Source of the DNA: a virus
Virus record (IMG/VR): IMGVR_UViG_3300031671_000012
Span: 1-24,984 of that record
Length of the DNA stretch: 24,984 bases
Strand: one strand, 5' to 3'
The notes under the pieces are model-generated. The model saw only the letters and a list, made by a program, of their open reading frames with translations, did no database searches and was not told the DNA's origin. The translations under genes were made by a program, and so were the position numbers. How positions within the stretch are numbered: position 1 is the stretch's first letter; each line of letters starts with the position of its first letter. Shown in pieces: positions 5,417-21,678 of the stretch.

Positions 5417-6484
5417 GTGCCACCAAGATTTCCGCGCTATGAAAAGATTGTAGGCTTCAAGGGGGCAAAGCGTAAGGTTCTTGAGGAAGTAATCAAAAGC
5501 ATAAATACGCGATACAAAAAGGAGAAGAAGCGGCAGGGAAAAACTTTAACAACGCTTCACGACTCCATATTTGCACAAGAGCGCCCTTACATCTCCAGTG
5601 GGATTCTTCCTATTGATTGCTGCCTCTGCTTTGGGATGGGATTTCCAGGAGGTGGAATCATAGAAATCTATGGCCCTGAGGCAAGCCTCAAAACTGCCAT
5701 TGTAGAAAACACACTGGCGGAATCTCAACGTAAAGGCTACTACACTGGATTGTTTGCCGCAGAATACTCCCTGAACTACAAAAGAATGAAAAGTGTTGGG
5801 TTGGATGAGAATTTGTTGCTGGTTATGTGCTCAAAAACAATCGAGGACTTCTACAAAGAACTGCGGGATGTTGTACATGATATCCGGGCAAAGGACAAAA
5901 GGACACCAATCGTAGTTGGTTGGGACTCAATTGCCGCAACTCCAACACGGACAGAGCTAGAGCATAAGGCTGGATTGGCTGCAAGTGACATGGGCAGGAT
6001 GGCCCTTCAGTTGTCTAAGTTCTTTCGTAGGCTAGTGCGCTTTCTTTTCTTAAACAACGTTTGTTTGCTTTGTGTGAATCAAACTCGAACTAATCTTGCT
6101 CAAATGTACGGAAACAAGGAAGTAACAACAGGAGGAAAAGCACTACGTTTCTATGCTTGGGTACGCTGCCGAGTGGCCCGTATCAAAAGCATCAAAGGCC
6201 CGGATGATGAGGAAATCGGGATGTTGTGCAATTTCACTACAGTGAAAAACAAATTTGCCCCACCCTTTCGTAAGTGTAAGCTGGCAGCCTACTGGAAGAA
6301 GGGAATTGACCCTGTTTTTACTGTTTGGGAATTTTGCATAGACAAAAAGATAATCGAGCGTAGCGAGCAGGTGTACAAATACAAAGGCCATGTTCTTACA
6401 AAAAACTCGTTTGCCAAGTTCTACTCAAAGTACCGTCAAGAAGTTGATGCGGCTTTGAGAAAAGCCTCACTGGGGAAAGAATGA
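5417..6484 (+). CDS. RecA/UvsX-family recombinase
   Basis: A 355-residue strand-exchange ATPase with a GTG start supported by AAGGAGG at 5403-5409. Visible RecA features: P-loop G86-PEASLKT-93, the catalytic Glu in LFAAEYSLNY (E116), Walker B-like VVGWDSIAA, and the L2/C-terminal core VNQTRTNLAQMYGN then TTGGKALRFYAWVR, which closely parallels bacterial RecA. The P-loop lacks the last glycine of GxxxxGKT and has Leu91 instead. T4 UvsX also departs here (GPSKSFKS), so the protein is probably functional but UvsX-type. The N-terminus carries RFPR at residues 4-7, shared with five other proteins in the window. It works with the upstream UvsY- and gp32-like genes and is coupled to the exonuclease by ATGA. 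Confidence 0.92.
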   Translation: MPPRFPRYEKIVGFKGAKRKVLEEVIKSINTRYKKEKKRQGKTLTTLHDSIFAQERPYISSGILPIDCCLCFGMGFPGGGIIEIYGPEASLKTAIVENTLAESQRKGYYTGLFAAEYSLNYKRMKSVGLDENLLLVMCSKTIEDFYKELRDVVHDIRAKDKRTPIVVGWDSIAATPTRTELEHKAGLAASDMGRMALQLSKFFRRLVRFLFLNNVCLLCVNQTRTNLAQMYGNKEVTTGGKALRFYAWVRCRVARIKSIKGPDDEEIGMLCNFTTVKNKFAPPFRKCKLAAYWKKGIDPVFTVWEFCIDKKIIERSEQVYKYKGHVLTKNSFAKFYSKYRQEVDAALRKASLGKE

Positions 6485-7428
6485 AGACACTCATTATCGA
6501 CGGAAACAATAGCGTATGGCGTCTTTCCAAAAAGATGCCTATCCTCACCACTGCTGACACTAAGCAGGAAATTCAAGTCGTCTATGGCTTTCTGCGTCTT
6601 CTACGGAGTGTTCTTGTGCAGTTCAGCCCAGACTTGGCTTTGATTTGCTGGGACTTGGGAAAGTCTGAGTACCGAAAAAAGATTTTCCCTGAATACAAGG
6701 CTAATCGGCACCATGATTCTACATCTGCTGAAGCTAGAGAGTTTCGGAGTGTACTGAGCCAGATGGAGATTTTGAAAGACCTGCTGCGGAATCTTGCTGT
6801 GGCGCAACTTACCTATCCTGAAATGGAAGCTGATGATTTGATTGGGATTTCTTGTGCAGAACTAGCTGGAGACAAGACAATTGTTTCTTCTGATCAGGAT
6901 ATGCTCCATCTTGTAGACAACAAGGTTTCTGTTTGGTCTCCAATCAAGACAGAATTGTACACGATGAATAATTTTCATCAGAAACTTTTTCTATCTCCAA
7001 GACAATGGCTGGAATATCGGGCTGTCTGTGGAGATAATGGTGACAATATCCCAGGAATAGCAAAAGGTCTTGGGCCAACTACAGCAATGGAGATTATCCA
7101 GAAGTATGGCTCAGTGGAAGTGTTGTTTAGGGACTCAAAAGTGGCTGAGCGTGTGGCAAGCAAGGGAAATCGCTACGCTTTGTTTGTAGCAGAAGGAGCG
7201 CGGGAACAATTTTACAGAAATCTCCTGCTAATGGATTTGCACCTTTCCATTCGGCAAGAGAAGGCAGAAAAGGTAGTTTTGCTTCTTCGAAAAAACATCA
7301 AGGGCTTGAAACCAATAAACAAAGTAGCTTTGCAGGAATATTTTATCAAAAAGGAATTTGTGTCCTTGCTGAAGGATATGCCCAATTGGTTGAATCCATT
7401 TCAGGATTTGAATGTCCACGATAGCTAG
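6481..7428 (+). CDS. 5'-3' exonuclease / flap endonuclease (PolI N-domain family)
   Basis: A 315-residue stand-alone FEN-type nuclease, comparable in length to T5 D15 and to the N-terminal domain of bacterial PolI, which the polymerase here lacks. Metal ligands are visible in order: D7 (IDGNN), the acidic cluster EMEADDL at 114-120, SSDQD at 136-140 and GDNGDNIPG at 184-192, followed by a helix-hairpin-helix (GIAKGLGPTTA). It would remove RNA primers and flaps during lagging-strand synthesis. ATGA overlap with the recombinase gene indicates coupled translation, and its 3' end overlaps the next small gene by 17 bases. Confidence 0.93.
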   Translation: MKTLIIDGNNSVWRLSKKMPILTTADTKQEIQVVYGFLRLLRSVLVQFSPDLALICWDLGKSEYRKKIFPEYKANRHHDSTSAEAREFRSVLSQMEILKDLLRNLAVAQLTYPEMEADDLIGISCAELAGDKTIVSSDQDMLHLVDNKVSVWSPIKTELYTMNNFHQKLFLSPRQWLEYRAVCGDNGDNIPGIAKGLGPTTAMEIIQKYGSVEVLFRDSKVAERVASKGNRYALFVAEGAREQFYRNLLLMDLHLSIRQEKAEKVVLLLRKNIKGLKPINKVALQEYFIKKEFVSLLKDMPNWLNPFQDLNVHDS

Positions 7429-7618
7429 ATTTCCAAGGCTACTGCGGTTTCCAAGGTTTCCAGAAGCAGAGTGCCGCAGCAAGGAAGGAACACTTCTTTG
7501 CATCTGTGGAAAACGAGGCAGGATGTTTATCCATCAAAGTGAAGGGAAGCTTCGAGGATTTTGCTCTGATGAGTGCTGTGACTTCTTCTACGTTTTCAAA
7601 AAGTTAGGAGCAGAATAA
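7412..7618 (+). CDS. Small zinc-finger-like protein with doubled RFPR motif
   Basis: A 68-residue protein starting inside the end of the exonuclease gene, with AGGA five bases before the ATG. The N-terminus is unusual: two copies of Arg-Phe-Pro-Arg at residues 6-9 and 12-15, followed by another Phe-Pro. The rest has CIC at about 30-32 and CSDECC near 51-56, which suggests a single treble-clef or zinc-ribbon site. The ending is aromatic (FFYVFKKLGAE). No family recognised. Because it is little more than the repeated tag plus a zinc site, it is a candidate partner or adaptor for whatever recognises RFPR; that is inference. Confidence 0.65.
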   Translation: MSTIARFPRLLRFPRFPEAECRSKEGTLLCICGKRGRMFIHQSEGKLRGFCSDECCDFFYVFKKLGAE

Positions 7619-7620
7619 AC

Positions 7621-8109
7621 ATGGGAAGACATGCTAAGGTGTGGGATGTTAGGGAGGATTATCGCCCAATACTGTTCAAAGTGAAAGAACTGTTTCCAAC
7701 AGTACTGAAGCACATTGAGCCCAAGCGTGTGTTTCTATGTGGATTTACGAACAGGTCTAGCAACTTCATAGCAAGAATTTCCTCAAATCGCTATCCTTGG
7801 TCGTTAATCATACCGCATTTTGACTACGTGATAACCTTCTGGACAACTCGCTTTGATGCAGAAACTGTTGCATTTCAGCACTACGTTGTGCTTCACGAGC
7901 TATTCCACATCCCAGCAAGTGGATTTGAAGAAGGCCAGCGAAAGGAATATCGTAGACTGGTTCATCATGACATAGAAGACTTTTCAAACCTACTACGTTC
8001 CTACGGGATTCAAATGGAATCTGTTGATGATGTGATGAAAGGTGAACGAAAACTTTTTCGAGAGGAGAAAGGGCCGCATCGGTTTCCGCGTACAGCCCAA
8101 ATCAAATGA
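7621..8109 (+). CDS. Putative phage metallopeptidase-like protein
   Basis: A 162-residue protein with TAGGAG upstream (GGAG ten bases before the ATG). H92-E-L-F-H96 is a short HExxH zinc-peptidase motif, and HHDIEDF at 115-121 supplies a plausible third ligand. This arrangement (…VLHEL.H followed by HDIxDF) matches what I recall of the putative phage metallopeptidase family (PhageMetallopep). Substrate and role are unknown. The C-terminus carries RFPR at 154-157, five residues before the end. It is coupled to the next gene by ATGA. Confidence 0.7.
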   Translation: MGRHAKVWDVREDYRPILFKVKELFPTVLKHIEPKRVFLCGFTNRSSNFIARISSNRYPWSLIIPHFDYVITFWTTRFDAETVAFQHYVVLHELFHIPASGFEEGQRKEYRRLVHHDIEDFSNLLRSYGIQMESVDDVMKGERKLFREEKGPHRFPRTAQIK

Positions 8110-8453
8110 ACAATGAACCGCTTGTAATTGCTCGTTGCATAGTATCAAGCCACAGTCAAACTCGGCTTATTCTTGGTGAGTGCTATGGAATCCAAAGTAG
8201 CGAATTGTACTATGGGATGCGCTACGCCAGGGTTTATGAAATCAACTCTGAGGACTGGGCCACTTGGGGGGCTGTAGGCCAGGGACAAGGGAAGGACAAA
8301 CTTTTCAGAATTTCAGAACTTGGCCGTGCCTATCTTGGAGAATTTAGTTGCCATCGCTTTGAGCCAATCCACACCAAAGCAGAGATGGATGCTGAGATTG
8401 CTAGGATAGCTGAGCGGCAAAAGTTCACTTCCAGGCCAGTTCCTGGGGGTTAG
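8106..8453 (+). CDS. Hypothetical protein (115 aa)
   Basis: Starts in an ATGA overlap with the metallopeptidase-like gene and has no clear ribosome binding site of its own, so it probably depends on coupling. The product looks mainly beta-strand in its first two thirds (LVIARCIVSSHSQTRLILGE, then MRYARVYEI), with a Gly-rich turn (WGAVGQGQGK), and ends in a charged helix and a Pro/Gly tail. It is the last gene before a 98-base gap with a hairpin. No family recognised. Confidence 0.6.
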   Translation: MNNEPLVIARCIVSSHSQTRLILGECYGIQSSELYYGMRYARVYEINSEDWATWGAVGQGQGKDKLFRISELGRAYLGEFSCHRFEPIHTKAEMDAEIARIAERQKFTSRPVPGG

Positions 8454-8551
8454 GTAGCCTCCTATAACCCATCTCTAGCCCAATTTGCAGCCCCGTAGGC
8501 GAATTCTACGGGGAGGATAGGGGAAAACCCCATTCTAGGGAGTTTGTCAGG
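8454..8551 (+). promoter_or_regulatory. Intergenic gap with a perfect hairpin (8491-8513) and a second mini-hairpin
   Basis: This is one of the two largest gaps in the window. CCCCGTAG (8491-8498) pairs perfectly with CTACGGGG (8506-8513) across a seven-base loop. GGGG-AAAA-CCCC (8520-8531) could form a second small stem. AGGGAG (8537-8542) is the ribosome binding site for the next gene. There is no run of T after either stem, so a classical intrinsic terminator is not supported; an mRNA processing or translational control structure is as likely. TATAAC at 8463-8468 resembles a -10 box but no matching -35 is evident. Confidence 0.5.
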
Positions 8552-8791
8552 ATGATATTACAGCGAGTACACTTGTCAAAACTTAAGACAGATGATGGGA
8601 ATTGGGAATTTACAACAGCAACAGTGTGTATGGAGCTTTGGATTCAACCCCGAACACTGGAGGTCAAGAGCTACAGAGTTATTTTAGGAGACGGTAAGAT
8701 AAACAAGGTTCTAGGTGTTACTACAGAGCAGGGTGCTTTTATTCCTGTTGAGCTTCTCAGTTTTTCTAACGACTTCAAAATTTTGGAGTGA
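8552..8791 (+). CDS. Hypothetical protein (79 aa)
   Basis: First gene after the hairpin gap, with AGGGAG nine bases before the ATG. The product looks like a small all-beta protein (alternating hydrophobic strands such as WEFTTATVCMELWI and VKSYRVILGDG) and has no cysteine cluster or obvious catalytic residue. It is coupled to the SbcD-like gene through GTGA. No family recognised. Confidence 0.6.
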   Translation: MILQRVHLSKLKTDDGNWEFTTATVCMELWIQPRTLEVKSYRVILGDGKINKVLGVTTEQGAFIPVELLSFSNDFKILE

Positions 8792-9855
8792 GTGCTTTGT
8801 CTACAGTGCTTCGATTTTTGGCAACAGGAGACACCCAGATACACAACTGGAAGCAGTTCAGCTACACTCGAAAAGATGGAATGAACAGTCGGTTGTACAA
8901 TTGCCTCAAGGTTTTCGACATTCTTTCCACAGAAGCAAAGAAGCGGGGAATTCGTAAAATTCTACTGAATGGGGACTTGTTTGAGGAAACAGACTACATC
9001 CAAGTGGAAATCTACGACGCTGCCTATCAGAAGCTGGAGATGCTGTATGACTCAGGGTTGGAGACTGTAATCAATCTGGGGAACCACGACTTGTGTGCAC
9101 AGCTGAAAGACCGAACAATTCATTCTCTCAGGCCGTTTAGAAAAGTTGCACAAGTCATAGAGCAACCCCAACGCCTGTGGAAGCATTTGTATGCTGTTCC
9201 ATACACTTCAAAACCAGAACGTCTGAAGAAGGCGGTTAGAAAACTAAGAGTGGAAACTTCAGTTGCTGTGTTGGTTCTACATTGTGGTATACAAGGTGGG
9301 CGTGTAGGCCCAAAGCAATACCTCATTCGCAATCCTATCAAGCTCAAGGATATTCGTCCAAAAGACTTCAATCTTGTACTTCTGTCAGACTACCATACCC
9401 AGCAATGGTTGGCAAGCAACGTCCTGTATTTGGGCTCACCCCTTCAGCACTCGTTTGGAGAAACACATCGACCTTGTATTTGGGATGTGACTCTGTACGA
9501 CAAGAAGCCTTGGTTCAAGCTAGAAAAGATTTACACGAATCTCCCACGCTTTCGGCAGGTTCGAGTTTACCACCACAAAGACTTGAAAAAACTAGGGGAC
9601 TTGACTAATGACTTTGTTCGCGTTATACTACCGCTGGATTCAAAAGTTGAGGCTGCTGAGGTTGAGGCATTAGCCAGGGGGAAATTTCAGTTGCAGATAG
9701 ACCGAGCCAAAAGTGGAAGTGAGCAACCCATAGAAACTGTACGCTCACTGCGCCCTGAGGAGGCAATTGAACGGTATGCAAGGGGTAATGCTAGAAGAGA
9801 CCGGGTAGAAAGCCTAATACGTTTGGGCTCAAAAATTTATCTGGGGGAGAAGTGA
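8788..9855 (+). CDS. sbcD: SbcD/Mre11/gp47-like nuclease subunit (metallophosphoesterase)
   Basis: A 355-residue calcineurin-like phosphoesterase, the nuclease partner of the following SbcC/gp46-like ATPase. Motifs in order: GDTQIH (14-19), LNGDLFEE, NLGNHD, a His-Gly segment (VLHCGIQGG) and LLSDYHTQQ, which fit the metal-binding motifs of Mre11/SbcD; in the first, Gln17 stands where His is usual. The complex processes DNA ends during recombination. Two starts are possible: GTG 8788 overlapping the previous stop, or TTG 8797, which has GGAG (8785-8788) at a better distance of eight bases. The difference is three residues. Confidence 0.88.
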   Translation: MSALSTVLRFLATGDTQIHNWKQFSYTRKDGMNSRLYNCLKVFDILSTEAKKRGIRKILLNGDLFEETDYIQVEIYDAAYQKLEMLYDSGLETVINLGNHDLCAQLKDRTIHSLRPFRKVAQVIEQPQRLWKHLYAVPYTSKPERLKKAVRKLRVETSVAVLVLHCGIQGGRVGPKQYLIRNPIKLKDIRPKDFNLVLLSDYHTQQWLASNVLYLGSPLQHSFGETHRPCIWDVTLYDKKPWFKLEKIYTNLPRFRQVRVYHHKDLKKLGDLTNDFVRVILPLDSKVEAAEVEALARGKFQLQIDRAKSGSEQPIETVRSLRPEEAIERYARGNARRDRVESLIRLGSKIYLGEK

Positions 9856-11610
9856 ATGGTTGAGTTTCAAAAACTCAAAATTCATAACTTTATGAGTTTT
9901 CGAGAACAGCAAACCATTTCCCTAAGTAGGCAGGGAATAGTTCGATTGGAGGGGCGCAATCTGGATGACCCAGCGGCAGATAGCAATATGGCGGGTAAGA
10001 CAGCAATCATTGAAGCCCTGTGCTGGTGTCTATTCAATCGAACCATTCGTGGTCTCCACCATGACCAAGTCATACACAGGCGTGTGAAAAAAGATTGCTA
10101 CGTGTCGGTTTCCTTTACCGTGGCTGAGACAGGCTACGTGTGTAGGCGATACCGAAAGCATCACAAGCACCAAAACCAACTTCAATTATGGTGTGGAAAT
10201 CACCTGTTGTCTTTTCGGCATGAAGAACTTACTCAAGAAAGAGTAGAAGAAATTCTTGGCTGTGATTTTCAAGCCTTTGCCAATTCCGTAATCTTCGGTG
10301 GGATGAAGCCTTTTGCTATGATGTCAGACGCAGAGCAAAAGAAGCTTCTGGAATCCTTCCTGCACTTTAGCCGGTTTGATATTGCGCTCCACCGAACAAA
10401 GGAACTTCTAGCTGAGGCCAACGAGTACAAAGTACGGCTGTCTATTCAGCTTGAGCGAGAAAATGGAGAAGCAAAGACAGCCAAAGCTGAAATACAAGCA
10501 CTGCGGGAAAGTGAAGCCTTTGTTCAGCAAAAAGCGCAGGGAGAGTTGGAGGGGATTAGGCGAAAACTTCAGGGGTTGAAAAAGCCTAAGCTGAAAGTGA
10601 CAAAGCAAGATGTTAGGAAGGCTGAGGACGAATTTGAAGTCCTTGTTCAAAAGCAGACAAAGGGAGAAGCTAGAGTTCTTCAACTTCGAAAAACTCTAAA
10701 AGACTATTCCAAAGCAGTGCACAATCGAAAGAGATTGGTTGGAAAGCCTTGTCCGTTTTGTGGGGCTAGAATTTCTAAGCCAACTATCGAAGAATTCTTG
10801 AGCCATATTCAAACAGAGCAGCGGGGTACTATGGCGAAGTACCACGCAGCAAAACACTCTGTATTGGAATCGGAAAGGAGAACAACACATGGGCGCAAGA
10901 GTCTAAAGCGCCTACACAAACAATACACACTAAACCAACAACACCTAACACGATACTGCAAAGAGAAAGGGGAATTGGAGGCACAAGCGGGGGCAAAAAG
11001 TGTCTCCTTTGCCCCTTTCTCAGAAAAAATAGAAGCTTTATCTCTCAAGTACACACGGTGTGTGTCCAGGTTGTTGGTGCATGAACAAGAAAAGAAACTT
11101 CTTGAAAGGAGAATACAGAGCTTGGAGTTCTGGGAAATTGGTTTTGGAAATCGCGGAGTGAAGTCCTTGATTGTAAGGGAAGCACTCCCGGCATTGAACC
11201 AAAAGCTGGATGAGTATTCCAAAAAAGTATTTCATGGAGGGGTAGAGCTTGAGCTCAGCCCAACAAAACAAACCAAACAAGGAAAAGAGCGAGAGCTCTT
11301 TCATTTGCAGTATAAGGCTCGATTCGGGGCCAACAGTTATGTTGGTGAGTCCGCTGGAGGACGTAGACGGGTGGATATTTGCGTACTTCTTGTCTTTTCA
11401 TGGATGTCCCGCCTTTGCAATCTGCTACTTGTTGATGAACTCCTCGATGGTCTCGATGACACCGGACAAAAAGAGATTCTCAATATTCTCTCGGAGCTGC
11501 GGGGGACAATTCTAGTGATTAGTCATGAGAACCAGTTGCGTTCTCAGATAAGCAGAACTTGGCGGGTCACTAAGCATCATGGGTCTTCCACTCTGGAACA
11601 GTTTTCATGA
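9856..11610 (+). CDS. sbcC: SbcC/Rad50/gp46-like ATPase subunit
   Basis: A 584-residue SMC-type ATPase, about the size of T4 gp46 and far shorter than bacterial SbcC, so its coiled coil is short. Walker A is at S43-NMAGKT-49, the zinc hook is C299-P-F-C302 with coiled coil on both sides, the signature region is GESAGGRRR (497-505), Walker B is LLLVDE (523-528), and a switch His lies in LVISHEN. It pairs with the preceding nuclease subunit to resect DNA ends. The start has CTGGGGGAGA just upstream, one base after the previous stop. It overlaps the sigma-like gene by ATGA. Confidence 0.92.
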   Translation: MVEFQKLKIHNFMSFREQQTISLSRQGIVRLEGRNLDDPAADSNMAGKTAIIEALCWCLFNRTIRGLHHDQVIHRRVKKDCYVSVSFTVAETGYVCRRYRKHHKHQNQLQLWCGNHLLSFRHEELTQERVEEILGCDFQAFANSVIFGGMKPFAMMSDAEQKKLLESFLHFSRFDIALHRTKELLAEANEYKVRLSIQLERENGEAKTAKAEIQALRESEAFVQQKAQGELEGIRRKLQGLKKPKLKVTKQDVRKAEDEFEVLVQKQTKGEARVLQLRKTLKDYSKAVHNRKRLVGKPCPFCGARISKPTIEEFLSHIQTEQRGTMAKYHAAKHSVLESERRTTHGRKSLKRLHKQYTLNQQHLTRYCKEKGELEAQAGAKSVSFAPFSEKIEALSLKYTRCVSRLLVHEQEKKLLERRIQSLEFWEIGFGNRGVKSLIVREALPALNQKLDEYSKKVFHGGVELELSPTKQTKQGKERELFHLQYKARFGANSYVGESAGGRRRVDICVLLVFSWMSRLCNLLLVDELLDGLDDTGQKEILNILSELRGTILVISHENQLRSQISRTWRVTKHHGSSTLEQFS

Positions 11611-12314: not shown

Positions 12315-12645
12315 GCTGTTTGGTGCAGCAGACACTGAGAAACTGCTTACAGTGTTTGCGGGCACAACACTTAGAATTCCAAGTACGAAGGAACTTGAAG
12401 AAGCACGCAGAAATATTGCTATCTATGAGACACTGTCTCATGCAAAAAGCGCAGCGGAGGCACGCCGTCTTGGAGAGGCTCTGATGTCTCAACACAACAT
12501 CTCACGAAATCAGGTTAGAAGAGTATACAAACTCACTCGAAAGTTGCTCCGTGAAAGCAAACGGTTTTCAGAGGCAGACGCGAAAACAGGCCAGTTGAAG
12601 AAAAAGACAATTCGTGTGTGGCGTAAGAGCAAGCGGAGGATGTGA
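12244..12645 (+). CDS. Mor-like transcription regulator (putative)
   Basis: I chose the ATG at 12244 because GGAGG (12230-12234) is nine bases upstream. ATG 12280 is an alternative with no clear binding site. The product is about 133 residues: the segment FFRLFGAADTEKLLTVFAGTTLRIPS matches the Mor/Middle operon regulator pattern (a helix, Gly-Gly/Ala-Gly-Thr-Thr, then I-P). A helical C-terminus follows (MSQHNISRNQVRRVYKLTRK), compatible with a DNA-binding helix-turn-helix and ending in a very basic tail. Mor-type proteins activate phage transcription. Its position nested in the end of a sigma-like gene suggests the two control late genes together. Confidence 0.6.
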   Translation: MQVRLLLNQLAKMYPKSLVAEFFRLFGAADTEKLLTVFAGTTLRIPSTKELEEARRNIAIYETLSHAKSAAEARRLGEALMSQHNISRNQVRRVYKLTRKLLRESKRFSEADAKTGQLKKKTIRVWRKSKRRM

Positions 12646-12647
12646 CA

Positions 12648-13262
12648 GTGGCAAATGTCTCAAATTGGAAAGGCTGGGAATGGGAAGTTGCCATAGCTTT
12701 GGGGGGCAAGCGCCGGTTGCGCACGATGGAGTCTTTTGGGGTTGAGGCTCCAGATGTTTACTTTGGGAAGAAATTCCGTAGGAAATATCCTCTTGTCCGT
12801 ACGGTTGTCATTGAGTGCAAAAAAAGAAGGAACCTTAGTGTGCCAGCCCTGTTTGCTGGCGCAGCTTCCAAATATGGAGAAGGGGGAAAGAAACATGTCC
12901 TTCTGGGAACAAAGCTGCCACGGCTAGGCAGTCTTGGTAAGAAGACCAAAGAGTTGAAAAAGGAAGTTGCCAACCGATATTCTGAGGGCAGCAGGATTTG
13001 GGAGAAACGGTACAGTCTGTTATTGCGCCAGCGACAAAAGGAGCCAAGGAAAAAAGATATCAAGCGGCTCCGAAAAAGCATGAGACGAGCGCAGGATAGA
13101 GTTCTAAAACGCGACCTGGCAAAACTGCGTGCCAGACACTCCATTACAGGGCTGATGACTGTTGAGCTTGGGTTCTTTACAGAACTTTGGGAGGCTTGGA
13201 TTGGGAAACGCGAAAAGGAAGCGAGAGCGGAGAAAAAAGCAAATGGAAGACATGGCGGATAA
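12648..13262 (+). CDS. PD-(D/E)XK nuclease, possible Holliday junction resolvase
   Basis: About 204 residues from GTG 12648, which has GGAGG eight bases upstream; GTG 12642, overlapping the previous stop, is only two bases from it. Residues 8-60 show the PD-(D/E)XK layout: E13 in WEWEVAIALGG, P35-D36-V, then VVIE56-C-K58. A segment like SKYGEGGKKHVLLGTK follows, as in archaeal Hjc-type resolvases. Residues about 100-170 are an extremely Arg/Lys-rich coiled coil, longer than usual. A resolvase would suit a phage with UvsX- and gp46/47-like proteins, because branched DNA must be trimmed before packaging, and the terminase genes follow shortly. Confidence 0.7.
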   Translation: MANVSNWKGWEWEVAIALGGKRRLRTMESFGVEAPDVYFGKKFRRKYPLVRTVVIECKKRRNLSVPALFAGAASKYGEGGKKHVLLGTKLPRLGSLGKKTKELKKEVANRYSEGSRIWEKRYSLLLRQRQKEPRKKDIKRLRKSMRRAQDRVLKRDLAKLRARHSITGLMTVELGFFTELWEAWIGKREKEARAEKKANGRHGG

Positions 13263-13620: not shown

Positions 13621-13873
13621 CAGTGTTGCAAGAGACACCACAGAACTCCGAGTTCTGATACGGGAGGACTCTCATGGAAATCTAAACGTGGAGTGGGAGT
13701 CCAGAATCCATGGGACAGGTGTTGTAATTCCAATGCGCTCTTCCCACGTAGCAGGGCAGTTGTTTTCAGCTGCCTTTGTGGTTCTTAGCAAGGACTACAA
13801 AAGCATGTCAAATGCAATTGGAGAAGCAGTTGGGAAAGGTAATTCTAAGCAGGGGAAAGAAAACAGTGGGTGA
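13604..13873 (+). CDS. Hypothetical protein (89 aa)
   Basis: Starts at an ATG with GGAGAG about nine bases upstream, inside the end of the previous gene. It has an acidic start, then likely beta strands (ELRVLIREDSHGNLNVEWES), then HGTGVVIPMRSSHVAGQLFSAAFV and a Gly/Lys tail. No family recognised. It overlaps the small terminase start by eight bases. Confidence 0.55.
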   Translation: MEKETDSVARDTTELRVLIREDSHGNLNVEWESRIHGTGVVIPMRSSHVAGQLFSAAFVVLSKDYKSMSNAIGEAVGKGNSKQGKENSG

Positions 13874-14546
13874 TAGAATCCAACGCTTTCCACGATATGC
13901 TGAAGACTACCCTCCAGAGAAAAAGTTGGTGAAGATGGCCAGCATCAGAAAGCAGGTCTCTGAGGGAAAAGTTCCGGTTCGCTATGACAAACTTTCGCCT
14001 CGGATGAAAAAGATTGCCCGCCTTGCAGTACGAGGTGTTCCCATTGATGTAATCTGCAAAATGGAACATTTGGATAGTAACACCTATTATCGGTGGATTC
14101 ACTACCACAAACTGTTTCAGAAATACTACCTGCGGTACGCAAACAAACAGGCATCCATAGTTGGCTCAAGACTTGATGCAAAGCTAGGACGTTCCGTAAC
14201 AGTCCTAGAGGATGCCTTGGAAAGTCGTGACCCATATCTGCAAACTGATACTGCATTGCGTCTTTTGAAGGGCCGGGGCAAGCTGATTCAGAACATTCAA
14301 ACCAAACAGCAAATCTCTGGGCATATCGACACAACAAGCGAAGTCCACCATACCCACGAAATGGATAAGGAATTTGCTCAGATGTTTGTGGAAGCTATGT
14401 TAGGAAAAGCAACCGGAATGAAAACAATACAGCCGACAGTCATAGATTTGAAGGCTTTGCCTCCGGCTGAGGTGGAGAGTCTCATTGGTCAGGGTAAAAC
14501 AGTACAAGCCAGTAGACAAAGAGCGTCTGTGGAGAAAGATAAATAG
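13866..14546 (+). CDS. terS: Small terminase subunit (putative)
   Basis: 226 residues from GTG 13866, with AGGGGAAAG about eight bases upstream; an ATG-less frame extends back to 13776 inside the previous gene. Residues about 50-90 look like a helix-turn-helix (IARLAVRGVPIDVICKMEHLDSNTYYRWI, written here as the region around residues 50-80), as expected for recognising the packaging site. The central part is helical and suited to ring assembly, with a Lys/Gln/Ala-rich C-terminus. It immediately precedes the large terminase ATPase, the usual order. RFPR occurs at residues 7-10, preceded by Ile-Gln, exactly as in the portal tail (IQRFPR). Confidence 0.72.
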   Translation: MGDRIQRFPRYAEDYPPEKKLVKMASIRKQVSEGKVPVRYDKLSPRMKKIARLAVRGVPIDVICKMEHLDSNTYYRWIHYHKLFQKYYLRYANKQASIVGSRLDAKLGRSVTVLEDALESRDPYLQTDTALRLLKGRGKLIQNIQTKQQISGHIDTTSEVHHTHEMDKEFAQMFVEAMLGKATGMKTIQPTVIDLKALPPAEVESLIGQGKTVQASRQRASVEKDK

Positions 14547-15705
14547 CGCTGAGGGAATGAACGGTGTGCGAACCCTGATGCGCCAGTATTTATCTCCCAG
14601 CTTTCGGCGTATGCTTGTCCCATTGTCTCCCGAATTCTTTCTGACCTATTACCTGGGGTTTAGACTTCCTGAGCATCAAAAGAAATGGATTCAGCTTTGG
14701 TCTACACAATTTCTGCTGCACCTTGCTCCTCGTGACCATGGCAAATCTTGGATTCATTCCTACGGAAAACCACTATACCGGATTTATTCAGATGCTGTAA
14801 ACAACAATCTCGAATTTGTCAATGAAAGGTTTCTGCAAATCTCAAAGACGGACACGCAATCTTCCAAGTATGCAGACCAGGTTCGAGAAACGATTGATGG
14901 GAACACTTGGCTCACGGAAGACTTTGGAGACATTCGAGACCCAAAGAAGTGGTTGAAAAGCTACTTTAGTTGCAAACGCCTCAAGGCAGGCAAGCTGGAA
15001 AAGGACCACACGTATGAATTTGTTGGTGCCTTGGGAGGAATTACAGGAGGCCATTTTGACGATGTGAATGTGGATGACCCGCTGGATGATGAAAACACAA
15101 AGACTGGGGAGCGAATGGATTCCCTGGAAAACTGGTTCTGGGGAACAGTCTGGAATCTTCGAGAACCATCTACTCGGTACTGTGTAGTTGGCACTCGCAA
15201 AAACCGCAGGGACTTGTTCAATACCATTCTCCAATCAGCACTCTGGAAGAAGACAATCGAAAAAGCTATCATCAAATTCCCCATGATTCCTGACCCAACG
15301 GACTCTGAAAAATTGATTCAGGGCTGGCTCTATCTGACTGATACAGGGCGGCACGTCAAGGGACTATCAGAGATTAAGGGTGAAGAGACAATCGTTGATG
15401 TAGAACTTTTGACTGATGACTACGAGGTACTGTGGCCAAGCACCCCTGCTCTTGATGATAATGGAAAAGCAATCAGTGACCCAACCACTGGGAAAGAGAA
15501 AGCATTTGGATGGGGCATTCGGGAACTTCTGATGGATAGGGCAGGGCAAGGTTCTGTATCGTTTGACAGGGAAAAGCAGAATGAGATTAGTTCTGGTGAA
15601 GGTGGAATCTTTCAGAAGGATTGGCTTTGCTACTTTGACAACGAAATGCTGGTGTATAATTCCGTGGATGGCTACACCTACCTTGCTACGGAGCTGAGTG
15701 CATAA
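14485..15705 (+). CDS. terL: Large terminase, ATPase half (gene split from its nuclease half)
   Basis: 406 residues from a TTG at 14485 with GGAGAG five bases upstream; ATG 14557 is a shorter alternative. It has the terminase ATPase features: an N-terminal adenine-binding-like aromatic segment, Walker A L80-APRDHGKS-88, and the acidic Walker B region DDVNVDDPLDDENT (192-205). An ATPase coupling segment follows (RYCVVGTRKNRRDL). The frame stops at 15705 after IFQKDWLCYFD and YTYLATELSA, just where the RNase H-like nuclease domain should start. That domain is found 1.5 kb further on at 17189, after three other genes. The ATPase would power DNA translocation through the portal. Confidence 0.88.
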   Translation: MVRVKQYKPVDKERLWRKINSAEGMNGVRTLMRQYLSPSFRRMLVPLSPEFFLTYYLGFRLPEHQKKWIQLWSTQFLLHLAPRDHGKSWIHSYGKPLYRIYSDAVNNNLEFVNERFLQISKTDTQSSKYADQVRETIDGNTWLTEDFGDIRDPKKWLKSYFSCKRLKAGKLEKDHTYEFVGALGGITGGHFDDVNVDDPLDDENTKTGERMDSLENWFWGTVWNLREPSTRYCVVGTRKNRRDLFNTILQSALWKKTIEKAIIKFPMIPDPTDSEKLIQGWLYLTDTGRHVKGLSEIKGEETIVDVELLTDDYEVLWPSTPALDDNGKAISDPTTGKEKAFGWGIRELLMDRAGQGSVSFDREKQNEISSGEGGIFQKDWLCYFDNEMLVYNSVDGYTYLATELSA

Positions 15706-15723
15706 CTTACAGGAGAGGACAGC

Positions 15724-16209
15724 GTGACACATCTTCTGTCTAAAAAGAAAGCGCACAAAATGCTTGACCAACAACCTAGAATGGGCGCATTGCGCCTGAG
15801 TTGCTGTGACTTCTACGTTGAGGTGGACATTAGTCGCCCAAGAATCTATGAGCCTGTTAGAGGACGTTGGGGGATTCATACAAAAGAGCTTCCTATGATA
15901 CGAGTTGAGCTCAAGAACTTGGTGGCTACGCAAAAGTATCTAAGACCGGAGTCTATTCACTGGCATATTGATAACCCACCGCCAGAGAGGACTCCAATTG
16001 TTTTCAAGTTCCGAGGAAAATTGTACGTGCACAATGGGCATCATCGGTTTGTGATGAGAAAAATTCGTGGAATCAAATCAGCAATGACACGCTTTGCAGA
16101 CCTGGATACGATGACACAATTGGCAATAGTGCCAAAGCGATTTCCTCGTGAAGAGAAAAGGGAGGCCAGCAATGTACAGAGCTCAGCAGTCGTTACCAGG
16201 GGAGCTTGA
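15724..16209 (+). CDS. ParB/Srx-like domain protein lying between the terminase halves
   Basis: 161 residues from a GTG with AGGAGAGG just upstream, 18 bases after the terminase ATPase stop. Residues 60-125 read VELKNLVATQKYL, then PIVFKFRGKLYVHNGHHRF (GHHR at 105-108) and RGIKSAMTRF, the pattern of ParB N-terminal/sulfiredoxin-fold domains common among phage head-region genes. These domains may bind NTP or cut DNA; I cannot say which applies here. RFPR is at 139-142, close to the C-terminus. The end overlaps the next gene by 38 bases. Confidence 0.68.
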   Translation: MTHLLSKKKAHKMLDQQPRMGALRLSCCDFYVEVDISRPRIYEPVRGRWGIHTKELPMIRVELKNLVATQKYLRPESIHWHIDNPPPERTPIVFKFRGKLYVHNGHHRFVMRKIRGIKSAMTRFADLDTMTQLAIVPKRFPREEKREASNVQSSAVVTRGA

Positions 16210-16645
16210 ATCCATTCGGAGACTTAGAGAGGGTGGCCCTGGCTCTGGACCACAGGGTGGCAGCAAAAACAAAAAATCTTCCTCTAAAGGAAAGAATGTA
16301 ATGTCTATGGACTTATACAACCATTTTCCAGACAAAAGTGAGGATGAGGGCAATCCTGCAATGGACAATATGGCTTCTCAACTAAAGCATATTGGCTCTA
16401 TGAAAAATGGAAGTGAGTTAGCTACCTCTGACAAGACGATAACAATACATCCACATGGAGCAAAAGAGGGGAGCTACACTTTCCACTCCAAAGCAGGCTT
16501 CACAAGAGCAGCCTTGCTGAAAGCTACAATTTCAGCAGTAAGACAGGATGGGGGTGCTTCCCATCACTACAACAGCGATGTGGTAGTGGAGGCGATTCAC
16601 AGAAGTCCAACCACGGGGCATTATCACGCAGAACTGGGAACATAA
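16172..16645 (+). CDS. Hypothetical protein with GGPGSGP motif
   Basis: 157 residues from ATG 16172, which has GGGAGG about six bases upstream; a longer GTG start at 16148 has no good site. The N-terminus carries REGGPGSGPQGG, a short Gly/Pro/Ser motif I recall in many phage head-region proteins, followed by a Lys/Ser linker. The second half resembles a compact mixed domain with HPHGAKEGSYTFHSKAGFTRAALL and a His-rich end (GHYHAELGT). The function of the motif is not known to me. Confidence 0.58.
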   Translation: MYRAQQSLPGELESIRRLREGGPGSGPQGGSKNKKSSSKGKNVMSMDLYNHFPDKSEDEGNPAMDNMASQLKHIGSMKNGSELATSDKTITIHPHGAKEGSYTFHSKAGFTRAALLKATISAVRQDGGASHHYNSDVVVEAIHRSPTTGHYHAELGT

Positions 16646-16649
16646 AAGA

Positions 16650-17192
16650 GTGAATCAGGTAAGGTGTATGACCCTACCGATTCTTGGCGATGATTTTGAT
16701 TTGTTGTACAGCCAGCGTCTTCAGGAGCAACAGCCCAAACAAACTATCTTTCGTGGACAGGAAGCAGTTGATAGGCTCAATGAGCAAATAGCATCTCAGC
16801 CCCGAACGATTGCCATGGATTTTGACGGGGTTCTGGCTGAATGGAATAAGGGAGACAACATCAACAAGATTGGAAAGCCTCTAGCACCTGGAATCAAGCT
16901 AGCAAGAAGAATCCAAGCAAAAGGCTTCCGCTTAGTTATTCTAACAGCACGTCCCAAACCTATGTGGGGGGCAATTGAAAGCTGGTTGAAAAAGTATGGC
17001 GTACATCCTCTTCAAGTTACAAACGTGAAGCCACCCGCTGAAGCGTACATCGATGACCGAGCCATTCGCTATCCTGCCAATCTTGGAGCAAAGAAGACAA
17101 AAGAAAACTCTGGTGATGGGATTATGAATGGGCTGGATGGAAACAGGATTGTAGGCTCACTTGACACTGGAAATCGCAGAACATCAAGATGA
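16650..17192 (+). CDS. HAD-superfamily hydrolase
   Basis: About 180 residues from GTG 16650; ATG 16668 is an equally plausible start and removes six residues. HAD motifs are clear: D57-F-D59-G-V (motif I), VILTAR (motif II), and NVKPPAEAYIDDRAIRYP, giving the motif III Lys and motif IV Asp-Asp. The compact lay-out (small cap, KPxAxxYIDDRAI) is typical of small phage-encoded phosphatases; a nucleotide or polynucleotide 3'-phosphatase role is possible but not shown. Its stop overlaps the terminase nuclease start as ATGA, so this nuclease half depends on its translation. Confidence 0.78.
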   Translation: MNQVRCMTLPILGDDFDLLYSQRLQEQQPKQTIFRGQEAVDRLNEQIASQPRTIAMDFDGVLAEWNKGDNINKIGKPLAPGIKLARRIQAKGFRLVILTARPKPMWGAIESWLKKYGVHPLQVTNVKPPAEAYIDDRAIRYPANLGAKKTKENSGDGIMNGLDGNRIVGSLDTGNRRTSR

Positions 17193-17833
17193 TTACTTTA
17201 AGACCTTTGCAATTTGTAGATTTGGCGTTAAAATCAGCTTCAGACCCTGGTGTGAAGCTGAATCCTGATGGAACTGTGAAAGCGGACTACTTTGTGATTG
17301 CTACTGGGGCACGAGTTGGTGCTTTGGTGTACTTGCTTGACACCTACAGAGCGCAGATTCCCTTTCCCCAGCAAGTTCGTGCGATGGTTCGAGAATGGAA
17401 AACTTGGAAGTCTACCAAGATTGGCATAGAAGCAAATGCTTACCAGTGGGCATTGGGCCAGCAAGCCTGGGAGCAAGGTGTTCCCTGTGTACCTGTTTCC
17501 TACCCAGGAGACAAAGTCCAAAAGTGGCAATTGGCTACACCGCACTTTGAAACTGGTCGAGTCCGGATACGTGCTGTGAAGGAAAATGGAGTTCTTGTTC
17601 CTCATCCTTCGATGAGACGTTTTGTTAGAGAAGCTTTAGATGCACCTTTTGGTGACCACGATGATACTCTGGACGCAATTACAGGGCTGGTGCTTATGCT
17701 AACGAGCCCAGATTTTCAAGCAAAAGAATTCCATGGTGCATTGACCCCAGGATATTCTTTTGCCACCCTTGGTGGATTGTCACCAGGGCGTCGATCAGGA
17801 GACCCGTTTGATGCTTTCAAGAGTCCATTCTGA
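17189..17833 (+). CDS. terL: Large terminase, nuclease half (RNase H-like)
   Basis: 214 residues corresponding to the C-terminal nuclease domain of large terminases. Acidic residues appear in the expected order: D11 in FVDLALKSASD, E81 in IGIEANAYQWAL, and D156-H-D-D-TLD (156-162). Family features between them include VYLLDTYRAQIPF, PGDKVQKWQLATPHFETGRVRI and a following FP/FG-GDHDD. It lacks any ATPase motif, which lies 1.5 kb upstream. There is no strong ribosome binding site, only the ATGA coupling to the HAD gene. The combined length of the two halves (620 residues) matches an ordinary large terminase, so the two products probably assemble into one motor. Confidence 0.87.
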   Translation: MITLRPLQFVDLALKSASDPGVKLNPDGTVKADYFVIATGARVGALVYLLDTYRAQIPFPQQVRAMVREWKTWKSTKIGIEANAYQWALGQQAWEQGVPCVPVSYPGDKVQKWQLATPHFETGRVRIRAVKENGVLVPHPSMRRFVREALDAPFGDHDDTLDAITGLVLMLTSPDFQAKEFHGALTPGYSFATLGGLSPGRRSGDPFDAFKSPF

Positions 17834-17862
17834 AAAGTAACTCAGTTATGTGAGAGGGATAA

Positions 17863-20800
17863 ATGGCATCTACTGTAAACAATCCAACAAATGCTAAGCC
17901 AGTCCCCGGGCAAGCGTTGCCCTTCATCCGTAGTGCTTCAGGGAAGGCTGAAGCATCAACAGTGCAGCCGAAGCCCAAGGATGTGTTCAACACTGGCAAG
18001 GATTACACCGATGAAGGAGCGCCGCTATTTACCACGGATGTAATAGTGGCCTCTGGAAAGTTTCCACCTGCGTTTGCTCACATGCCAGGAATAATCAATC
18101 CCCCAACTTCCGAAGATATCAAAGGGCTGACTAATCCTGATGAGGCAGCACAAGGTCAGCACATCAAATACCTTCACGAAGCTATTGTGATGGATGTAGA
18201 TGCCAAGCTCATCATCTCCACTGAGAAGCAGATGAAGAATGGAATCTTTCGGGAAGCACATTATCCAACCTTGGCTGACTACATTCGCAGCCCACACTAC
18301 AAAAAGCTGCGAGAGACGCGGATTGTGTCTGAGGCATTGAGTAACGTAGCAAACAGAACGCAGCTTCGGGAAAGTGGCACCAATCCGGTAGCAATTCGAT
18401 TTAATCCACGGCTAGTAAGCCTGAGCAAGTCGGTAGATGGGAAGATTCTGAAGAGTCTGAGAGAGTCTGGCTTCACTAAGGAATTGAAGCGTCTCACTGA
18501 GCAAGGTGACTTTCCAGGAGACATTGGTGGCTTTGGTTCCATTGGTGCCACTGGTCAGATGCTCCCAAATTTTGATGGTGGCCAGAGCTTTGCCTTGGGT
18601 GGGAGAGAACCAGACTTCACTCCGATGATTGCTGGGCCATACAACAAGCAGTTGTACTTTGCTGACTATCTGGAAATGCACGCTCTTGCGTATCAAGCCT
18701 GGTGCTTAACAGGCGATACTGAGATAGCAATGTTAGACGGAAGAGACATTTCCATTTTGGAGTTGAAAAAAGAATTGGAGTCGAAGGAATGTGTACAAGG
18801 TTACAAATTCGAGATGGCCAGCCAAACAATTCAGCCTGTGAATCTAATTGGTGTTCACGAAATGGGGGAAAAGGAGTGTGTTTGCATTCAGCTTAATTCC
18901 AGGAATGGGAGGATTATAACAGCTTCTTTAGACCATCCATTCCTGATGCTTGATGGAAACTACAAGAATGCAGGCAAACTTTTCCCTGGAGACCGTTTCA
19001 TGCCCATGGGAGTTAGGCCAGAAGGAATTCCAGAAGTTGAAAAAGTTTACCCTGCGGGTTTACATCATGTATATCATATTGAAACTTCTGAAGAAAAGTA
19101 CGAAGACCAAAACTTTTATTTGTCAGCAGGAATCTTTTCACACAACACGCACAATCCTGTAGCAAAAAGAATTGCCAAGGTCATCACACAATTTGTGCTT
19201 GGCAAGGGTGTCAAAGCAACAGTCATCACCGCGAGCTATCCACAGCCCAAGCCAGGGCAGCAAACGCTACAAGGACAGCCGCAGCAACCCAGCAAGGACT
19301 GGGCTGCCTTTTGTCAGGTGAAGCTGGATGAGCACTGGGAAAAGAACACACTTCACATTCGCAGCAAGCAAATCCTGCGCGACCTGGTTATCTTTGGGGA
19401 GCAGTTTGTTCGCTACTATGATGCTCCCTGGGGATTGAAGATTCGCCAGATTGACCCTTCCACAGTTTGGGAAGTGATTACAGACCCTGATGATTGCGAA
19501 AATGAATTTTACATCCACCAGCAATATCCGACGAGATATCAATGGTATGTCGATTTGCCAATTCCTTGCTTGGTTGGTTCTACAAAAGTTCGAACATTCT
19601 TTGGAAAAATTATGACTGTGGCAGAGTTGGCAGAATCTTCTGCTTCTGGCACATTTTTATATGCCTTTGATGAAAAAACAAAAGAAATTGTTCCAAGTTG
19701 TTTAGTGAAAGCTTGGAAAACAGGTACAAAAGAGTGTGTATCTGTGAAATTAAGTAATGGAGCAGTTGTAATAGCTTCTACTGACCATCCTTTTCTACTT
19801 CGAAACGGGGTGTATGAAGAAGCTGAAAAACTATCTCTTGGCACAGAACTAATGCCATTCCAGTTTACAGAAGATGCTGGAGTGCTTCAGCCAGCTACAG
19901 GGGAATACGAGTACCACATGTTTGTTCCCAAAAAAATTCCAAAGAAAGAAAAGGGGCCAACAGTAGAGTCAGTTATTTCTGTTGGAAAGCAAGAAGTGTA
20001 CGATGTTCAGATGGAAGGAAATCACAACTTTGGGCTGGCTGCCGGTTGCTTTGTCCACAACACCATAAAATTCATCATTCGCCAGGTTCCAAGTCTTCTT
20101 TACTATCACATGAAGATAAACACGGTGTCAGGAGAAGTTCGAGGCCGCAGTGAACTGTTTGCAGTTCTTGGCTGGCTCAAGCGCCTGAAAGAGTTTGCCA
20201 GCGACAGAGTTATACGTAACAAGATGGCAAATCTTTTCGTTTTGGATGTTGCAGTAGAAGGCGACCAGGCAGCAGTAGAGAATGCTAAGCAGCAATTCAA
20301 TACTCCACCAACTCCTGGCTCTTTTTTCATTCATAACAAAGCGGCAGAGCTTAACGGCATCAAGGCAGAAGTTGGGGCAGCTGACACTACGGCAGACTGG
20401 GAAATGCTGCTTACAATTATTGCAATGGGTGCTGGATTGTCACAGCAATATCTAGGAATGAGTGGTGGAACAAGCAAGGCAGAGGCACTGGTAGGAACAG
20501 AACCTGATGTAAAGACGTTTGAGGACTATCAGGAAATCATGGAGCAGTTCTTCCTACAAGATACTGAGCGCCTGTTTACTCGCTGTAAAGAGCGTGGAGA
20601 GATTCCCAAGAACCTGATTGTAAAGGTTGAAATCACCTATCCTGCCATTGCAGAAGAGAATCGAAGTGAAAAGCTGAAAGATTTGGCCTTTGGTGAGTCG
20701 ATGTCCTGGTGGTCTCACCGACGCATCGCTTCTGCTTCTGCAAAAGAATTGCAATTCACTTCCTATGACTATGATGAGGAACAACAGCAAATCGCACTGG

Positions 20801-21678
20801 AAGACGCGCAGAAGGAATTCCTAATCAACAGCGCCTACGCGCAGGTGCTGAAGGGCGAAGATAGCAGCAAGGCTGCTGCTGCAGGCGGTGCAGCGGGTGG
20901 AGCAGCAGGGGGTGCGGCAAGTGGTGGTGCTTCTGGTGGCAAAGGTGCCAGTGGAATGGGAATGGGAAAATCTCTACCAACCAGTAGCACTAAGGGCGAA
21001 AGTGAATCCATCCAGGAGTCCAGGGAAGACGCAACTCCAGTAACAGCACCTGGAACATCGACTGCCTCCAATGTTTCTGGAATGGCTACAACACACAATG
21101 CAAGCAAGGGAGCAGATGGCAAGACAGACCCTTGGGCAACAAGAGACCCGCGTGACATGGCTGAAACAATCAAGAGAGAAGCAGCAAATCTTCGCTACAG
21201 CCGTCACGCAATTGGACGAAAGCAAGACCGTGTGAAATCACCTGACAAGGTGCGTGACCAGAAGACTCTTGACCGTGGTGCCGTGGTATCCAAGGCAAGA
21301 GATGCGATGAAGCATGGTAACCTGAACAAAGAATCCCATCATCATCACCACCACCATGGGAACAAAGCAATTCAGCGCTTCCCGCGCCTAGAAACAGGCC
21401 CAGTGCAGCACCGTGACGCTATCCGTGTTCCTGAAGAAGAGCAGCAACTGCAATTGCAGCGCGGAAGCAAGCAGAAAGAAGCAATCGAAAGCGTGATGAA
21501 GCATACGCGCAAAAACCGTGAACAGGGGATAGAGCCATTCAAGCCTGAAGATGGTATGAAGAATTCCGCAACAACTAGTCCTGCTGGCACTGGAGCATAC
21601 AAAAAGCCCAACAGCGGAATTGTTGGTATTCCTGATGCAGTGAAGTTTGGCCAAAAACAACCTCGCCGCAAGAAATAA
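17863..21678 (+). CDS. Portal protein precursor containing two mini-inteins
   Basis: A 1271-residue precursor with GAGAGGGAT before the ATG. Without the inteins (residues 281-428 and 569-733) it is 958 residues. The extein has portal features: LAYQAW…NPVAKRIAKVITQFVLGKGV, then ILRDLVIFGEQFVRYY, PSLLYYHMKINTVSGEVRGRSELFAVLGWLKRLKEF (around 735-775) and MGAGLSQQYLGMSGG. The portal forms the dodecameric vertex ring that docks the terminase. Beyond about residue 1000 comes an unusual C-terminal extension: an Ala/Gly/Ser linker (20872-20970), a basic region, seven consecutive His residues (21337-21357), IQRFPR (RFPR at 1172-1175) and a very basic end (GQKQPRRKK). Such an extension could reach into the capsid or bind DNA or scaffold; that is inference. 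Confidence 0.85.
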   Translation: MASTVNNPTNAKPVPGQALPFIRSASGKAEASTVQPKPKDVFNTGKDYTDEGAPLFTTDVIVASGKFPPAFAHMPGIINPPTSEDIKGLTNPDEAAQGQHIKYLHEAIVMDVDAKLIISTEKQMKNGIFREAHYPTLADYIRSPHYKKLRETRIVSEALSNVANRTQLRESGTNPVAIRFNPRLVSLSKSVDGKILKSLRESGFTKELKRLTEQGDFPGDIGGFGSIGATGQMLPNFDGGQSFALGGREPDFTPMIAGPYNKQLYFADYLEMHALAYQAWCLTGDTEIAMLDGRDISILELKKELESKECVQGYKFEMASQTIQPVNLIGVHEMGEKECVCIQLNSRNGRIITASLDHPFLMLDGNYKNAGKLFPGDRFMPMGVRPEGIPEVEKVYPAGLHHVYHIETSEEKYEDQNFYLSAGIFSHNTHNPVAKRIAKVITQFVLGKGVKATVITASYPQPKPGQQTLQGQPQQPSKDWAAFCQVKLDEHWEKNTLHIRSKQILRDLVIFGEQFVRYYDAPWGLKIRQIDPSTVWEVITDPDDCENEFYIHQQYPTRYQWYVDLPIPCLVGSTKVRTFFGKIMTVAELAESSASGTFLYAFDEKTKEIVPSCLVKAWKTGTKECVSVKLSNGAVVIASTDHPFLLRNGVYEEAEKLSLGTELMPFQFTEDAGVLQPATGEYEYHMFVPKKIPKKEKGPTVESVISVGKQEVYDVQMEGNHNFGLAAGCFVHNTIKFIIRQVPSLLYYHMKINTVSGEVRGRSELFAVLGWLKRLKEFASDRVIRNKMANLFVLDVAVEGDQAAVENAKQQFNTPPTPGSFFIHNKAAELNGIKAEVGAADTTADWEMLLTIIAMGAGLSQQYLGMSGGTSKAEALVGTEPDVKTFEDYQEIMEQFFLQDTERLFTRCKERGEIPKNLIVKVEITYPAIAEENRSEKLKDLAFGESMSWWSHRRIASASAKELQFTSYDYDEEQQQIALEDAQKEFLINSAYAQVLKGEDSSKAAAAGGAAGGAAGGAASGGASGGKGASGMGMGKSLPTSSTKGESESIQESREDATPVTAPGTSTASNVSGMATTHNASKGADGKTDPWATRDPRDMAETIKREAANLRYSRHAIGRKQDRVKSPDKVRDQKTLDRGAVVSKARDAMKHGNLNKESHHHHHHHGNKAIQRFPRLETGPVQHRDAIRVPEEEQQLQLQRGSKQKEAIESVMKHTRKNREQGIEPFKPEDGMKNSATTSPAGTGAYKKPNSGIVGIPDAVKFGQKQPRRKK
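18703..19146 (+). other. Mini-intein 1 in the portal gene
   Basis: A 148-residue in-frame insertion that begins with Cys (CLTGDTEIAMLDGR, block A) and ends in FSHN followed by Thr as the +1 residue, between YQAW and THNPVAK of the portal. Block B reads ITASLDHPFL, with Ser where the usual Thr of TxxH lies. The block F region (VYHIETSEEKYEDQNFYLSAG) has His where Asp is common. There is no LAGLIDADG or HNH endonuclease between blocks B and F. Removal leaves a continuous portal helix. Confidence 0.88.
19567..20061 (+). other. Mini-intein 2 in the portal gene
   Basis: A 165-residue in-frame insertion that begins CLVGSTKVRTFFGK and ends AAGCFVHN followed by Thr, between VDLPIP and TIKFIIRQ of the portal. 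Block B is VIASTDHPFL, again with Ser at the Thr position; block F (QEVYDVQMEGNHNFGLAAG) is canonical. No homing endonuclease domain is present. Its DNA looks richer in A and T than the surrounding portal sequence. It resembles intein 1 in layout (DHPFL, LMPF/RFMPMG, HN-Thr). Confidence 0.9.

Follow-up and report, generated by a model that had tools for sequence, protein, structure and literature searches.

A conserved Arg-Phe-Pro-Arg motif at the ends of DNA-processing and packaging proteins in a phage clade: a putative docking signal

Terminal motifs that bind a common hub, exemplified by the PIP-box and the tails of SSB proteins, organise DNA replication and repair in cells. The APIM sequence, with the consensus [KR]-[FYW]-[LIVA]-[LIVA]-[KR], is a PCNA-binding motif (PMC6881253). 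In the case of phage T4, the acidic C-domain of gp32 is a described site of many protein contacts and has been proposed to contact the short basic LAST motif; the C-domains of SSB proteins contact many partners (PMC5892887). In nucleus-forming phages, import by the PicA pathway involves recognition of a surface region, and no conserved terminal sequence was found (PMC11087766). Short strings repeated in many proteins of one phage are also represented by the T4-type prohead-protease sites (LxE).

Here, we analysed a window of 24,984 bases of viral DNA (the whole stretch examined, from an IMG/VR record) and nine related contigs, the proteins of which share the tetrapeptide Arg-Phe-Pro-Arg (RFPR). 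We know of no other phage clade with one exact tetrapeptide on so many of its own DNA-handling proteins, and full-text literature searches gave no relevant mention of an RFPR motif and no published description of it. The PIP-box and APIM are short, occur in disordered regions of numerous unrelated proteins that process DNA, and all dock on one hub; RFPR resembles them in length and distribution, and it shares with APIM a basic-aromatic-x-x-basic character (PMC6881253). It differs from APIM in having four residues, a near-obligatory proline at position 3 and no lysine in place of arginine, whereas APIM has five residues with [LIVA][LIVA] in the middle. Although its proposed action resembles that of PIP-box/APIM and SSB-tail systems, RFPR is not classed here with either: it does not fit the APIM consensus, eight clade contigs gave no match to a DnaN or PCNA clamp, and its binding to the SSB is putative. 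The resemblance to T4 lies in a gp32-like SSB with an acidic tail, encoded beside UvsY-like and UvsX-like genes. The LAST motif of T4, however, is (K/R)3(S/T)2 and lies inside gp32 itself, while RFPR is strictly R-F-P-R and is carried by other proteins, its link to the SSB being putative. As in PicA import, the phage would mark its own DNA-handling proteins for one place, but this clade shows a clear terminal tetrapeptide and has no known phage nucleus. The role of T4-type LxE sites fits a different string of the clade, RLRE/LREA in structural proteins, and not RFPR.

The first-pass annotation of the window had listed seven in-frame RFPR copies in six unrelated proteins, and all seven were found at their positions, on the plus strand and with the codons given there. 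They lie in the UvsX/RecA-like recombinase (gene 5417-6484; copy at 5426-5437, residues 4-7), twice in a 68-residue Cys-rich protein (gene 7412-7618; 7427-7438, residues 6-9, and 7445-7456, residues 12-15), in a PhageMetallopep protein (gene 7621-8109; 8080-8091, five residues before the C-terminus), in the small terminase TerS (gene 13866-14546 with a GTG start at 13866; 13884-13895, residues 7-10), near the C-terminus of a ParB-like protein (gene 15724-16209; 16138-16149) and in the portal protein, within its C-terminal tail (gene 17863-21678; 21376-21387). Family searches identified a RecA/UvsX recombinase, a PhageMetallopep peptidase and a portal with an intein; they gave no match for TerS, the Cys-rich protein and the ParB-like protein, the names of which rest on context and on the first-pass annotation. 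Three extra RFPR strings occur outside the gene frames, at 20600 (plus strand), 23417 and 24380 (both minus strand). A second contig represents the same phage and is 99.99% identical over 16.5 kb.

Given their composition, the predicted proteins, of about 8,355 residues in all, should contain 0.066 RFPR, and six distinct carriers correspond to a Poisson p of 1.0e-10, the most extreme value of all tetrapeptides. In 300 within-protein shuffles of the window, the most extreme string of any kind reached 1.4e-7, and RFPR itself had at most two carriers in any shuffle. The composition-matched strings RYPR and KFPK, proposed earlier as a comparison, were absent from the window's proteins, as were KFPR and RFPK. 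The earlier view that RFPR is too frequent for chance is borne out: of the two conditions that would have refuted it, neither holds, since the matched strings are absent and the orthologues, described below, keep the motif.

An IMG/VR search with the large terminase (TerL) of the window gave five contigs with TerL 62-67% identical, and TerL and RecA alignments added four more, so that nine relatives were available (TerL or RecA 46-67% identical). They are designated A (G001, 92.9 kb), B (G002), C (G003), D (G004), E (G005, 104 kb), F (G007), H (G008), I (G010) and J (G009), with W for the window. The gene predictions came from a home-made dicodon caller, and both their number and part of their starts are approximate. 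No close isolate was found in phage records, and no relative in bacterial and archaeal genome contigs scanned with the TerL alignment. No tRNAs were found in contigs A, C and E.

In nine of the ten contigs, no tetrapeptide is more over-represented than RFPR; in contig F, it ranks third. Its p value is weakest in the 18-kb contig H (2.6e-5), strongest in contig E (1.2e-21) and 2e-8 or lower in eight contigs. Altogether, 94 copies were found in 77 proteins belonging to 33 orthogroups. When all open frames were considered, 102 copies were present in 287,788 clade residues vs none in 63,361 residues of the control, which consisted of the open frames at nine loci of unrelated phages, 50 kb of T4 among them. 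More distant relatives (L008, L009, L042-L045, L054 and L055; RecA or TerL 24-33% identical) had no RFPR in a plausible gene, and their RecA N-termini lack it. Since neither the control loci nor these distant relatives have the motif, the tagging appears, as judged from the sequences compared, to be confined to the ten-contig clade.

The clade copies are concentrated at protein ends, as the first-pass annotation had noticed in the window: 73 of the 94 lie within 20 residues of an end, compared with 22.8 expected for uniform placement (maximum 37 in 2,000 trials). Within 30 residues of the ends, 38 copies are N-terminal and 39 C-terminal, and the other 17 lie elsewhere; the non-terminal copies inspected, in FtsK and endonuclease-VII-like proteins, are beside and not inside recognised domains. 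The 94 copies are encoded by 68 different 12-mers and use all six arginine codons, in agreement with the earlier statement that selection acts on the peptide and that the motif was not copied as DNA. The motif is strict. Clade termini contain 77 RFPR, five RYPR, five RHPR, three RFAR and three RFSR, but no KFPR or RFPK. Among one-residue variants, any other RxPR occurs at most five times and any other RFxR at most three times, while other RFPx strings number two and other xFPR strings five. The flanking residues had been described as unconserved. This holds for the flanks in general, which diverge, but not for position -2, which is isoleucine, valine or proline in 70% of the clade copies (background 16.5%) and in 28 of the 33 orthogroup majorities. 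As a working consensus, we use [IVP]-x-R-F-P-R.

AlphaFold models of the recombinase and the metallopeptidase, built on 9-10 sequences and of modest quality (mean pLDDT about 67), gave pLDDT under 50 in the tag regions, and both tags presumably sit in disordered ends. RFPR has several properties of a short linear motif: an excess over composition, presence in unrelated proteins, conservation among orthologues while the flanks diverge, and location at ends or in linkers.

The related phages retain the motif in corresponding proteins, and the carriers of the nine contigs uphold the earlier description of a set of DNA-metabolism and packaging proteins. The RecA N-terminus carries RFPR in all ten contigs; R4-F5-P6-R7 are invariant and residues 8-15 vary. 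TerS has it at the N-terminus in 7/7 orthologues with the pattern I-x-RFPR, and the C-terminal tail of the portal in 6/7. In the metallopeptidase, it was found in six of nine orthologues, and its distance from the C-terminus was exactly five residues in every one of the six; two of the remaining three are missing the tail altogether, and the third has a tail of another kind. A fold search with this protein gave weak selecase/HtpX/minigluzincin-like matches, none of them significant. The ParB-like carrier is a singleton without an orthologue in the other contigs. Further carriers are an FtsK/SpoIIIE-type translocase (5/6, in the stretch preceding the FtsK alpha domain), a protein of 216-230 residues without assigned function (N-terminal, 4/4), the helical-domain protein of the 5-hmdU DNA kinase (C-terminal, 4/8) and the P-loop kinase of the same system (N-terminal, 3/3). 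Carriers found once or twice include endonuclease VII with two copies at the C-terminus, a radical-SAM protein that has RFPR as its last four residues and matches a phage photolyase family, a protein of 456-463 residues (C-terminal), a PIG-L-like protein and an orthologue of the product of window gene 12642-13262.

The interval between the exonuclease and metallopeptidase genes contains a small tagged protein in 9/9 contigs. These proteins represent two or more unrelated types, some Cys-rich and others not, and are often tagged at both ends; some of 70 residues have one copy at each end. We read this slot, from the sequences, as a case of convergent gain and not of shared descent. Together with the tandem copies and the loss of the tail as a unit, the unrelated tagged proteins in one syntenic slot show what looks like repeated gain of the motif.

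In A_73 (L020:18452-19303) and its orthologues in B, D, E and I, the N-terminal and C-terminal halves are both conserved, the second being encoded in the +1 frame with respect to the first. The C-terminal half contains one to three RFPR in A, B, D and E and two in I. The sequence TACGCAAR, common to four contigs, lies near a candidate programmed +1 frameshift; in contig F, the similar halves appear to share one frame.

Many proteins of the same phages are untagged. They include DNA polymerase A, SSB, the UvsY-like mediator, the exonuclease, SbcCD-like proteins, DnaB helicase, primase, DEAD helicase, a sigma-like factor, a late-activator-like protein, both TerL pieces, an HU-like protein and a thymidylate-synthase-like protein. 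Essentially all structural proteins, including those of the tail, also lack RFPR; in the structural module of contig A, 44 of 45 genes are untagged, and the one exception is endonuclease VII. As we read the carrier list, the tag prefers packaging entry and those proteins whose action on DNA falls around replication or later. In the window, the untagged DNA polymerase A (988-3678) is fused to an N-terminal domain of the uracil-DNA-glycosylase superfamily.

Of the three options raised in the first-pass annotation (a sorting tag, a docking motif for a common partner, a processing site), docking fits best. The explanation that we consider probable is that RFPR is a terminal docking motif through which proteins that process DNA gather at a common hub on the phage DNA. 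This reading is based on the strictness of the motif, its terminal or linker placement, the tandem copies, the loss of the tail as a unit and the convergent gain, and the carriers of known function are mostly DNA-acting. The counterpoint is that the exonuclease, SbcCD and TerL act on DNA and are untagged. According to this mechanism, [I/V/P]-x-R-F-P-R would be exposed on disordered ends or inter-domain linkers, through which the recombinase, endonuclease VII, the FtsK-type translocase, the 5-hmdU DNA kinase, TerS, the portal and others would bind one common partner. We infer that this partner is a protein. It would be located on phage DNA, on which its clients would act during or after replication, so that recombination, base modification, DNA movement and packaging might be gathered at one place. 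If recruitment to a hub is true, the tag predicts which clade genes of unknown function act on DNA and offers a simple handle for finding the hub, in contrast to nucleus-forming phages, in which no terminal signal was found. The strict consensus makes the proposal directly testable with peptides.

The leading candidate for the receptor is the untagged gp32-like SSB (4112-5107, plus strand; phrog_1192), which has an acidic, serine-rich C-terminal tail. It is attractive because it is present in all ten contigs, is untagged, has an acidic tail and belongs to the same gene row as the UvsY-like and RecA genes, just upstream of RecA. The tails of all ten orthologues are rich in D/E or D/E/S (D/E 25-65%, the lowest ones being serine-rich). 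Such a role of the SSB is speculative and rather doubtful; otherwise, the receptor would be another phage protein or a host protein. The near-absolute need for phenylalanine and proline fits a shaped pocket better than a fuzzy acidic tail, which counts against the SSB. An alternative candidate might be the untagged UvsY-like recombination mediator (3675-4115, plus strand), found in 10/10 contigs, the orthologue of which (A_84) matches phrog_231 UvsY-like. The outgroup loci gave no SSB or UvsY match. In eight clade contigs, which may be fragments, no DnaN or PCNA family match was obtained, while the controls were detected; the search for gp45 detected no control, and the negative result for a clamp therefore refers to the DnaN and PCNA families. 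Another protein considered as a hub is that of the A_75 group (contig A 59728-61077), a protein of 350-450 residues in which acidic blocks alternate with blocks of lysine (or serine); it also has a Cys-rich knuckle, and its C-terminal domain is conserved. It was found in A, B, D, E, F and I only, and contig C stops short of the corresponding part of the genome. The end of a RecA-adjacent protein in L008 is similar to the knuckle.

Instead, the tag could direct proteins to a physical compartment or a condensate that surrounds the phage DNA, as an import or partition label and not as a ligand of one hub protein. The carriers are proteins expected at phage DNA, the several copies in some small proteins (four in C_107, three in D_0) would suit multivalent clients or cross-linkers, and the A_75 protein, with its acidic and basic blocks, could scaffold a condensate. 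We consider this unlikely, as no shell or tubulin-like protein came to notice in searches aimed at other proteins, the largest contigs, of about 100 kb, are below jumbo size, the core replisome proteins are untagged, and in nucleus-forming phages no conserved terminal signal has been found (PMC11087766). The broader statement that RFPR is an address code, a strict and repeatedly gained terminal tetrapeptide gathering recombination, hypermodification, translocation and packaging proteins at either a single receptor or a compartment on phage DNA, seems to us evenly balanced between true and false.

Direct binding of RFPR to nucleic acid is rather improbable. Two arginines, an aromatic residue and a proline could form a basic-aromatic peptide that raises affinity for phage DNA, perhaps hypermodified, on which the carriers act, and the clade has 5-hmdU DNA kinase and thymidylate-synthase-like genes. 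A single copy per protein would, however, add little affinity, and the near absence of lysine in place of either arginine, together with the preference for I/V/P at -2, points to a protein pocket. As for the DNA itself, contigs A, B, D, E, F, H, I and J contain thymidine-hypermodification genes, with the parts of the 5-hmdU DNA kinase in separate proteins and a thymidylate-synthase-like gene. Given these genes, the DNA of the phages represented by these eight contigs probably contains modified thymidine.

In T4-like phages, short N-terminal sequences direct the loading of internal proteins. A similar cargo tag, loading proteins into the procapsid or onto the portal, would agree with the presence of RFPR on the portal and TerS. 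It is very improbable here, since the portal itself is tagged, other proteins of the structural module of contig A are not, and RecA, FtsK and the DNA kinase are not expected in virions.

A processing site, one of the options raised in the first-pass annotation, hardly comes into consideration. In its favour, a clade metallopeptidase carries the tag, and the structural proteins have a separate LRE-type string with the look of a prohead-protease site. Copies in the last four residues or at residues 2-6 would nevertheless yield no meaningful product, because cleavage there would free next to nothing, and some 70-residue proteins are tagged at each end. Apart from the three out-of-frame copies in the window, nothing speaks for chance, for a DNA repeat common to the genes or for a mobile DNA element, and these explanations are negligible, given the p values in eight of ten contigs, the orthologous conservation, the absence of RFPR from the control residues and the lack of a nucleotide sequence common to the copies.

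The RLRE/LREA string mentioned above is a second recurrent string, enriched in the structural modules of A and E (p 1e-8 to 1e-11), often near the protein start; in sequence, it resembles T4-type LxE prohead-protease sites. The large terminase of the window is split into an ATPase-like part (14485-15705) and a nuclease-like part (17189-17833), about 1.5 kb apart with other genes between them, and the relatives show the same split. The window portal (17863-21678) apparently contains two inteins, at about residues 281-425 and 570-734, of which the second alone passes the Pfam intein cut-off; relatives A and D are without both, and other portals are also long. A run of seven histidines is encoded at 21337-21357, shortly upstream of the portal RFPR.
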